A stretch of 64,000 nucleotides of DNA, from contig JAHLLI010000013.1 in NCBI GenBank assembly GCA_020444245.1, positions 1-64,000 on the forward strand, in the 5' to 3' direction. Of the stretch, positions 23,723 through 26,084 are shown in pieces (positions within the stretch are counted from its first letter, which is position 1; every line of letters begins with the position of its first letter). The notes beneath the pieces are model-generated. The model did not search any database. It was not told the origin of the DNA and saw only the letters and a program-made list of their open reading frames with translations. The stretch comes from Actinomycetales bacterium. GTDB lineage: Bacteria; Actinomycetota; Actinomycetes; Actinomycetales; Cellulomonadaceae. Made by a program: the position numbers and the translations under genes.

Positions 23723-24304
23723 ATGCCACGAGCCCTGATCGTCGTCGACGTCCAACCCACCTTCTGCGAGGGCGGCGAGCTGCCGGTGGCGGGCGGCAAC
23801 GAGGTCGCCCACGCGATCGCCGCCTACGCCGCGGCGCACCGCGACCGCTACGCGCTCGTGGCCACGACCCAGGACTGGCACCTCGACCCTGGGCACCACT
23901 TCGCGACCCCGCCCGAGGAGCCCGACTTCGTCGACACCTGGCCCCCGCACGGCCTCGCCGGGACGCCGAACGCCGAGCTGCACCCGGCGTTGGCGTTCCT
24001 CTCCGCGGACGTCGCGGTGCGCAAGGGCGCCCACGAGGCGGCGTACTCGGGGTTCGAGGGCACCACGGCCGACGGTCGGGACCTGGCGACCGTGCTCACC
24101 GAGGCGGGGGTGACCGACGTGGACGTGGTCGGCATCGCCGAGTCGCACTGCGTCCTGCAGACCACGCTGGACGCGCTGCGCGAGGGCTTCGGTGCGCGAG
24201 TGCTCTCCGACCTGACCGTCCCGGTCAGCGAGGAGCTGGGCGTCGCCGCCCGGGAGCAGATGGCCGCGGCGGGGGCGACGCTGGTCCCCTCGACGTCGCT
24301 CTGA
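23723..24304 (+). CDS. pncA: Nicotinamidase / isochorismatase-family hydrolase
   Basis: 193 residues. ALIVVDVQPTFCEGGEL (catalytic Asp), metal ligands in TTQDWHLDPGHHF, VRKGAHEAAYSGFEG (catalytic Lys) and the nucleophile Cys in GIAESHCVLQTTLDAL. This arrangement is typical of PncA, which makes nicotinate for NAD salvage and activates pyrazinamide in mycobacteria. A TACGCT -10 element (23711-23716) lies 6 nt before the ATG, so the transcript is probably leaderless. Confidence 0.92.
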   Translation: MPRALIVVDVQPTFCEGGELPVAGGNEVAHAIAAYAAAHRDRYALVATTQDWHLDPGHHFATPPEEPDFVDTWPPHGLAGTPNAELHPALAFLSADVAVRKGAHEAAYSGFEGTTADGRDLATVLTEAGVTDVDVVGIAESHCVLQTTLDALREGFGARVLSDLTVPVSEELGVAAREQMAAAGATLVPSTSL

Positions 24305-24372: not shown

Positions 24373-24747
24373 ATGGACGCCACCGTCATCTCCCTGGCCG
24401 AGCGCCGGGCCGCCAGCGGACGCGTGCCGCGCCCGGCCCGCACCGCACCACCGCCGCCGCCGCCGACGGAGCGCGACCACCGGTCGCAGGCACGTGTGTG
24501 GCGCCGGTCGATCGGGCACCTGCTGCGCACCGCGCGGCTCGACGCGGCGCTGCGGCTGGTGGACGTCGCCGAGGCGGCAGGGGTCTCGCCGCAGTACCTC
24601 TCGGAGGTCGAGCGCGGACGCAAGGAACCCTCGTCGGAGGTGCTCGCGGCGGTCACCGGTGCGCTGGGGATGAGCCTGGTCGACCTTGCCCACGACCTGG
24701 CGCGCGAGGTCGCGGCCCCGTCGGGCGGCGTTCGCCTGGCGGCCTGA
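24373..24747 (+). CDS. XRE-family regulator, ClgR/PopR-like
   Basis: 124 residues. A Pro-rich N-terminal ~35 residues (APPPPPPTERDH) precedes a helix-turn-helix: RSIGHLLRTARLDAALRLVDVAEAAGVSPQYLSEVERGRKEPSSEVLAAVTGALGMSLVDL. The VSPQYLSEVERGRKEPSSE segment matches ClgR, the activator of clp protease genes in actinobacteria, and PopR, which controls clpP3-clpP4 in Streptomyces. It ends 6 bp from the 3' end of a convergent clpP pair, which fits that role. The C-terminal residues (EVAAPSGGVRLAA) end in Ala-Ala, as in ClgR/PopR proteins that are themselves Clp substrates; this last point is inference. Confidence 0.82.
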   Translation: MDATVISLAERRAASGRVPRPARTAPPPPPPTERDHRSQARVWRRSIGHLLRTARLDAALRLVDVAEAAGVSPQYLSEVERGRKEPSSEVLAAVTGALGMSLVDLAHDLAREVAAPSGGVRLAA

Positions 24748-24753
24748 GCCCGG

Positions 24754-25368
24754 TCACCGACGGGCCGCGACGGCGGCGCCCCGCCCGCTGACCACGTGGT
24801 CCGCCAGTCCGTAGGCGATCGCGGCCTCCGCGGGCAGCACGAGGTCGCGGTCGGTGTCCCGGCGCAACGTCGCGACGTCCTTGCCGGTGTGCACCGCGAG
24901 GACCTCCTCGAGCTGCCCGCGCACCCGCACCACCTCGTCGGCGGCGAGGATGAGGTCCGGGATCGCGCCTCGCCCCTGCGTCGAGGGCTGGTGGAGCAGC
25001 ACCCGGGCGTGCGGGAGGATCCCGCGCCGTCCCGCCGCCCCGCCGGCCAGCAGCACGGCCGCCGGGCCGGCAGCCTGGCCCACGCAGGTCGTGGACACCT
25101 CGGGCCGGATGTACTGCATCGCGTCGTAGATCGCGAGCATCGCCGAGGTCGACCCGCCCGGGGAGTTCAGGTACAGGTCGATCGGCGCATCGGGGTCGGC
25201 GGACTCCAGGTGCAGCAGCTGGGCGACCACGACGTTGGACACACCGTCGTCGATCTCGGTACCCAGGTACACCACACGTTCGGACAGCAGCCAGCTGAAC
25301 ACGTCGGTGACCCGCTCGACACCGCCGGCGCGACGCTCGGTGACGTAGGGCACGGTGTAGGCGCTCAT
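24754..25368 (-). CDS. ClpP-family subunit lacking the catalytic serine
   Basis: 204 residues, full ClpP length. The fold motifs are intact: [67 protein letters not shown] and [24 protein letters not shown]. Catalytic His (126) and Asp (171) are present, but the GQAAS motif reads [12 protein letters not shown]: the nucleophile is Gly101 (codon 25066-25068). It is therefore predicted to be proteolytically inactive by itself, as with ClpR subunits that join active ClpPs in mixed rings. ATG overlaps the upstream clpP stop (ATGA), so the two are made together. Confidence 0.92.
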
Positions 25369-25976
25369 CGCACCGCTCCGAAGCCCGCGTGGCCGGCGCC
25401 GGGCCGCACGTCCGACAGGTCGGTCAGCACATGGTCGACGAAGCCGTACTCCAGGGCCTCGTGCGCGGTGAACCAGCGGTCGCGCAGTGAGTCCTCGGCG
25501 ACCCGCTCGACCGGCTGCCCGGTATGGGCAGCGATCAGCCCGAGCACCGTGTCGCGGGTGTGGCGCAGGTCGTCGGCCTGGAGCTCGACGTCCACGGCGG
25601 TGCCGCCGATGCCCGCCGAGCCCTGGTGCAGCAGCACGCGAGAGTGCTCCAGGGCGTACCGCTTGCCAGGGGTCCCGGCGGAGAGCAGGAACTGCCCGGC
25701 GCTGGCCGCCCAGCCCATCGCGAGGGTGCTCACGTCGTTGGGGATCAGGCGCATGACGTCGTGGATCGCGAGCATCGCGGGCACCGAGCCGCCCGGCGAG
25801 TTGATCCACAGGCTGATCTCACGGCGGGGGTCCTCGGCGGACAGCAGGAGGAGCTGCGCGCACAGCCGGTTGCCGGCGGCCTCGTCGAGCTCGGTGCCGA
25901 GCACGACGATGCGCTGGTGCAGCAGTCGGGTGGCCAGGTCGTCGTCCAGGCCGCGGGGGCGGGGTGTGTCGTCCAT
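25365..25976 (-). CDS. clpP: ATP-dependent Clp protease proteolytic subunit (active)
   Basis: 203 residues. It has the full Ser92 ([12 protein letters not shown]), His117 ([12 protein letters not shown]) and Asp162 ([10 protein letters not shown]) triad and the [18 protein letters not shown] loop. It is coupled by ATGA to the serine-less subunit and faces a ClgR/PopR-like regulator, as in the Streptomyces clpP3-clpP4-popR arrangement. It probably forms heteromeric rings with the downstream subunit and works with a ClpX/ClpC unfoldase encoded elsewhere. No trigger factor or clpX lies nearby, so this is likely not the primary clpP1P2 operon. Confidence 0.93.
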
Positions 25977-26084
25977 ACGGCGAGCGTGCCCCGGCTCGGG
26001 GCCGGTCAGAGGGCGCCGCTGCCGAGGGCGGATCCGCCGTCGGCGGAGCCTGTGCGGTGACGGGGGCCCCGGGTCCGCCCCCGG

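Follow-up and report, generated by a model that had tools for sequence, protein, structure and literature searches.

The window analysed here, a stretch of 64 000 nucleotides from an Actinomycetales bacterium of the family Cellulomonadaceae, carries two adjacent clpP genes that probably (roughly 0.7 in our estimate) encode a PopR-controlled backup Clp core in which the work is fully split, one ring cutting and the other docking the ATPase. The first subunit has a complete triad (Ser92, His117 and Asp166). The second has Gly101 at the position of the nucleophile and, judging from its sequence, cannot act as a Ser peptidase.

Locus layout and active sites

The clpP3–clpP4-type operon spans positions 25976–24754 on the minus strand and is faced by a popR-type gene. 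The features of the locus are as follows:

25365–25976, minus strand: clpP3-type gene (ClpP1-like; clpP-a), 203 aa; catalytic subunit, with GWAASAGQ and LHQGS around the active site
24754–25368, minus strand: clpP4-type gene (ClpP2-like; clpP-b), 204 aa; Ser-less subunit
25365–25368, minus strand: overlap of the two clpP genes, 4 bp
25066–25068, minus strand: codon 101 of the clpP4-type gene, GGC, Gly in place of the catalytic Ser
24373–24747, plus strand: popR-type XRE regulator gene, convergent with the clpP pair; the product ends in Leu-Ala-Ala (degron-like)
26018–26047, minus strand: predicted PopR operator, matching 19 of 20 positions of a pair of abutting palindromes, TCYGC-N5-GCRGA

A sequence-only reading of this DNA had described two overlapping clpP genes and a convergent XRE gene 6 bp away. 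The coordinates agree on both counts: the overlap is 4 bp long, and the stop codons of the popR-type gene and the second clpP are 6 bp apart. The gene across the operator from the first clpP is, as read from its sequence, presumably rsmI. Upstream of popR, on the same strand, lies a nicotinamidase-like gene (23723–24304), which matches PRK11609 with 81.5 bits, below the cut-off of 174.

Against PF00574 (ClpP family; cut-off 20.2 bits), the first subunit scores 209 bits and the second 204.9. A separate housekeeping clpP pair is present on contig C39 of the same genome, so that the clpP3/clpP4-type pair is an additional one. The closest solved structures of the first subunit are mycobacterial ClpP1 chains; the second has its top score against the ClpP2-type chain of 8xon, and its further best matches are ClpP2 and general ClpP chains.

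The nucleophile motif of the second subunit is GQAAGPAAV. As the earlier reading had it, Gly101 (codon GGC, 25068–25066) replaces the nucleophilic Ser and His126 is in place; the catalytic Asp, which it had put at position 171, is in fact Asp175. The Ser–His–Asp triad by which an active ClpP peptidase is recognized is thus incomplete in this protein. The triad is present in the alignment in all 294 first subunits longer than 150 amino acids, a number that includes 19 housekeeping proteins and some rows from the same species. The L193 partner is counted among them as intact; its first clpP, as extracted, contains an in-frame stop.

Loss of the nucleophile in related operons

We searched 221 genomes of the family, 396 of the order and 393 of the class, together with the best 80 of 122 named loci, and 120 further regions were fetched. 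This gave 273 operons with both genes and, after omission of 16 operons whose second subunit is identical to one already counted, 257 distinct second subunits, the window's included. The counts also exclude L283, which is interrupted, L304, which comes from the genome that contains L165, L103 and L182, whose partners are incomplete, and six ClpPs for which no partner matched (L106, L107, L109, L110, L112 and L113). Among 109 further accessory matches, 60 were fetched, 6 had loci already and 43 were left out; at class level the counts rest on 23 loci only. L182 was considered as a Ser-less subunit without a partner and rejected as such, a partner having been found at about 1095–1583. Recognizable sequence of this partner begins at about residue 46, and a search upstream did not find the part before it; a frameshift, a truncation or an assembly error are the options for the missing start.

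Ser is present in 137 of the 257 second subunits and absent from 120; because relatives were chosen for their similarity to the window's second subunit (best 80 of the 122 named loci; E ≤ 1e-66 in the order and class searches), this share is no census. The 120 Ser-less proteins have Ala (66), Gly (47), Trp (4), Phe (2) or Thr (1) at the nucleophile position. They account for 39 of the 95 family loci read, for 49 of the 84 genomes that have a match outside the family but within the order, and for 30 of the best 80 of 122 named loci (22 from Agromyces, 2 from Leifsonia, 1 each from Leucobacter, Nesterenkonia and Nakamurella, and 3 unplaced).

The earlier reading had reckoned with a strain error or decay, should close relatives all turn out to have Ser. 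The nearest relative found (82 per cent identity) has the same Gly, encoded by a different codon (GGG), and beyond these two there are 118 distinct Ser-less relatives. A sequencing error or strain accident at Gly101 is ruled out by these 119 other distinct proteins. Ser is kept in nine second subunits that are 73–80 per cent identical to the window's, the closest being L119 (79.6 per cent); they include that of G007, a genome of the same genus. The accessory pair is present in 10 of the 19 genomes of this genus, the motif being GQAIGPAAL in G015, GQAASPAAL in G007 and GQAASAAAV in the other six. Two more genomes of the genus show a third, partner-like ClpP match (G003:C113:5020-5535 and G011:C32:619-1128) for which no second subunit was found; these may be lone copies or contig ends.

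Some individual sequences deserve mention. Trp (GQAAWTAAV; L286, L289, L291 and L292) or Phe (GQATFTAAV; L159 and L165) at the nucleophile position is bulky and would fill the active site; the catalytic Asp is replaced by Thr in three of the four Trp cases and by Asn in the Phe cases. A ClpP4-type protein from Luteipulveratus (L061, 4001–4585) keeps the nucleophilic Ser but also has Ser where the catalytic His belongs, so that a subunit can be dead in this way too. The conserved strand NSPGG reads NCEGG in some Ser-less subunits (L068, L090 and L182).

The partners of all 120 Ser-less subunits have SAG at the nucleophile and HQG at the catalytic His. This type of partner is also found beside 23 of the 137 Ser-bearing subunits, the other 114 having other combinations. 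Since Ser is kept in 23 of the 143 systems with a SAG/HQG partner, some of them 73–80 per cent identical to the window's, its loss is not obligatory. The association reflects few evolutionary events, and its rows are not independent evidence.

For the trees, rows were thinned to 135, plus 3 housekeeping ones. In the second-subunit tree, built without the columns around the triad, all Ser losses sit within a single clade (77 rows; SH-aLRT 97), and the state changes eight times or more, or 22 times if only losses are allowed. The first-subunit tree, from which only the catalytic-His columns were omitted, has a matching clade of 76 rows (support 99) with 12 changes. A joint tree of 82 rows, with the active-site columns omitted, splits the 76 rows from six outgroup rows at 100/99; the best tree has 10 changes of the Ser state and the 1000 bootstrap trees have 9–11, or 17–22 under the loss-only assumption. 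Near relatives differ at this site: L007 has Gly and L008 Ser, and L122 has Ala where L123 and L131 have Ser. Some of the changes may be regains of Ser.

All 137 Ser-bearing second subunits use a TCN codon for this residue; a single base change leads from it to Ala, but two are needed for Gly (GGN). It is thus unlikely that Gly arose from Ser in one step. The rest of the triad loosens where Ser is gone: 35 of the 120 Ser-less second subunits have lost Asp as well, versus 1 of the 137 Ser-bearing ones, and 7 versus 1 have lost His.

Docking features, regulator and operator

The docking residues were located by our alignment with S. hawaiiensis, whose pocket for the ATPases has been mutated (PMC9765437). 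The window's second subunit keeps the N-terminal hairpin and the pocket residues Tyr66 and Tyr86. The central pocket Tyr is present in 119 of the 120 Ser-less second subunits; the third pocket position is Tyr in 63, His in 40, Phe in 16 and Trp in 1, and docking could be altered in the 40 proteins with His. Their partners have Trp (89), Leu (28) or Phe (3) at the central position and never an aromatic residue at the third. Of the 137 partners of Ser-bearing subunits, 94 have the central Tyr and 118 have Leu as the third pocket residue. Judged by these residues, part of the pocket change in the first subunit predates the loss of Ser. In all 19 housekeeping pairs, each of the two subunits has Tyr at the central position and either Tyr or Phe at the third.

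The N-terminal loop pattern [IVL]Px[VI] occurs in all 120 Ser-less and all 137 Ser-bearing second subunits and in none of the 257 partners; the same pattern was applied to both subunits, and it misses housekeeping ClpP2 (LPQF; 0 of 19). The predicted model of the second subunit has the ClpP fold (mean pLDDT 88.7) with an N-terminal hairpin (strands 8–12 and 18–22), and that of the first (mean pLDDT 86.8) has no such hairpin. The best solved matches of the second subunit's model are in M. tuberculosis ClpP1P2, with fold hits at TM 0.88. The sequences favour separate docking and cutting subunits as the predicted arrangement.

The XRE regulator had been called ClgR/PopR-like. It does match the ClgR model, weakly (63.5 bits, below the curated cut-off of 170), and a second, stronger ClgR match lies elsewhere in the genome, on C42; the window's regulator is an adjacent ClgR paralogue with a C-terminal Ala-Ala. 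A PopR-type gene is present in 254 of 277 loci and convergent in 253 of them; no PopR-type match was found in 16 of the 277 loci with room for popR, nor in 7 more without room. The C-terminal Ala-Ala is found in 232 of the 254 PopR-type proteins. For Clp substrates, ClgR among them, two terminal alanines are described as the likely main degradation signal (PMC9775585).

Counting short words in the promoters of the first gene, with no motif assumed, brought out TCTGCC/GGCAGA, which was then matched to the published PopR site; TCTGCC is present in 129 of 269 promoters and in 13 of 269 background stretches. A review gives the PopR site of S. lividans as TCTGCC-3N-GGCGAATCTGCC-3N-GGCAGA (PMC9775585). 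Among loci with 200 bp of upstream sequence (unthinned), 16 or more of the 20 operator positions match in 110 of the 120 that are Ser-less and in 99 of the 149 that have Ser. This score is also reached by 2 of 807 shuffles, by 1 of 19 housekeeping promoters and by 42 of 807 background stretches taken from these loci, some of which overlap the true site. The match in the window (19 of 20) lies 41 bp upstream of the clpP3-type ATG. ClgR-type boxes are not enriched upstream (GTTCGC in 23 and GCGAAC in 17 of 269, with background values of 26 and 22).

No dedicated extra Clp ATPase was found near by; the genome has three ClpB_D2-small matches, none of them on the window's contig, so that the common ATPases most likely serve the second core too.

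Proposed division of labour and known Clp systems

PopR of Streptomyces is reported to be degraded by ClpP1P2, with clpP3P4 activated only on failure of the main core (PMC12607617, PMC9765437). By analogy with this genus, the sole system where PopR control and PopR degradation have been shown, the regulator in the window would be destroyed while housekeeping ClpP1P2 works, would accumulate on its failure, and would then switch on the second core. Because it ends in a Clp degron, its destruction by working ClpP1P2 is expected, which would make the second core a backup. Here the ClpP1-like subunit (25976–25365) would hold all cutting sites, the parts that hold the ATPase being gone, and the ClpP2-like subunit (25368–24754), having lost its nucleophile, would provide the axial loop and the docking pocket for ClpX or ClpC. 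We picture a double ring with one dead ring, on whose side the ATPase would dock, and we presume that the second core is active and of benefit.

The operon may thereby represent the end point of the ClpP1P2 division, a docking subunit with no need of its own site having often dropped Ser within the clade. S. hawaiiensis is reported to have a ClpP1 that cuts and a ClpP2 that docks the three ATPases tested, and the Ser-to-Ala change in its ClpP2 leaves full activity (PMC9765437). For M. tuberculosis in vivo, only the activity of ClpP1 is described as essential, ClpP2 being a scaffold for chaperone binding (PMC9067928, PMC4416901). The dedicated secondary Clp core proposed in the sequence-only reading gains from the second operon, the PopR-type regulator, the match to the PopR site and the conserved, paired Ser-less subunit. 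Its further idea, that such a core perhaps tunes substrate choice, finds only indirect support, in the altered residues beside the partner's nucleophile and catalytic His.

The Ser-less protein might instead alternate with the active subunit in mixed rings, both partly active, as ClpR does. The precedent is Synechococcus ClpP3/R, reported to form two identical rings with three active and four inactive subunits (PMC4673316). We consider this arrangement unlikely here, as one protein has the features for docking and the other those for cutting, in the manner of ClpP1P2, which has one ring of each (PMC4416901), and the predicted fold, too, finds its best matches in that complex of M. tuberculosis. 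Much less probable is a Ser-less subunit that pairs with housekeeping ClpP1 and redirects the main protease as a competitor or adaptor. An accessory ClpP of S. hawaiiensis is reported to pair with the housekeeping ClpP2 (PMC12607617), and the window's own genome has a housekeeping pair; however, all 120 Ser-less subunits adjoin the altered partner type, and the two genes overlap by 4 bp in 187 of 277 pairs (with start codons chosen by script), which together point to co-translation and joint evolution.

Decay, with the second subunit a relic that lost its function along with Ser, is the most improbable of the explanations weighed. The additional losses of Asp and His speak for it, as do the interrupted second subunit of L283, which is not counted, and the pair L007/L008, where the second subunit has changed faster than the partner (dN 0.079 versus 0.018). 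Against it, the 120 Ser-less proteins are 193–228 amino acids long, have no in-frame stops and all carry the N-terminal loop motif; comparison of the window's protein with the nearest relative gives a dN of 0.125, well below the dS of 0.506; and the median dN/dS is 0.494 for Ser-less subunits versus 0.515 for their partners (7087 pairs), a crude comparison of Nei–Gojobori counts near saturation. Doubtful, though less so than decay or a housekeeping pairing, is a dead ring that is not passive: the earliest change would have been in the surroundings of the partner's active site, where Ala replaced the Met after the nucleophile and Gly replaced the Pro two residues past the catalytic His, so that the core has seven cutting sites with a remodelled pocket; the emptied sites would then have become peptide-binding control sites, and the result would be a one-ring backup protease that differs in gating and in the sizes of its products. 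The reading that we prefer remains a cutting ring joined to a ring that serves to dock the ATPase.

This lineage may be regarded as a natural experiment, in which the nucleophile of one subunit has been lost many times and that of the other never, among the copies read, and in which the loss occurs only in operons with a specific active-site change in the partner. It bears on the question why Clp cores of two subunit types retain active sites in both, the activity of ClpP2 being reported as dispensable in M. tuberculosis (PMC9067928), and the matched natural pairs with and without Ser, similar in sequence, offer a test of the purpose of the second set. In S. hawaiiensis, ADEP antibiotics are reported to act on ClpP1 via a Tyr in its pocket (PMC9765437), and insensitivity to ADEP is reported for ClpP3P4 of Streptomyces (PMC12607617). 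With a partner that has no ADEP pocket Tyr, cores of this kind might outlast an attack on the main protease.

The closest known system is clpP3–clpP4/PopR of Streptomyces, which, as reported, has like the window adjacent clpP genes, a facing PopR-type gene and an upstream site of the form given in PMC9775585. The Streptomyces loci L108 and L111 share the window's layout and have related upstream sites (18 of 20 and 19 of 20 positions). Their second subunits keep Ser (GQAGSGAAV) where the window's has Gly, and the L108 partner has SMG and HQP where the window's has SAG and HQG. A few bacteria, S. coelicolor and Nocardia among them, have been reported to carry triad-less ClpP alleles (d'Andrea et al. 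2022, PMC9067928); the passages concerned describe no operon, regulator, partner pattern or repeated loss for them, and the literature searched, with subscription papers outside its scope, yielded no report of repeated nucleophile loss in a PopR-controlled operon. The long-known ClpR of cyanobacteria and plastids is likewise a triad-incomplete relative of ClpP, reported to work in a mixed core (PMC4673316, PMC6508832). Unlike ClpR, the window's protein keeps His and Asp and groups with Ser-bearing actinobacterial ClpP4-type proteins, in trees built without ClpR. The housekeeping ClpP1P2 of Mycobacterium and Streptomyces is also reported to consist of one cutting and one ATPase-docking subunit (PMC9067928, PMC9765437); there the Ser of ClpP2 is dispensable yet encoded, whereas in the window's second subunit it is gone from the gene. 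In our best reading, this operon extends the asymmetry of ClpP1P2 one step further.
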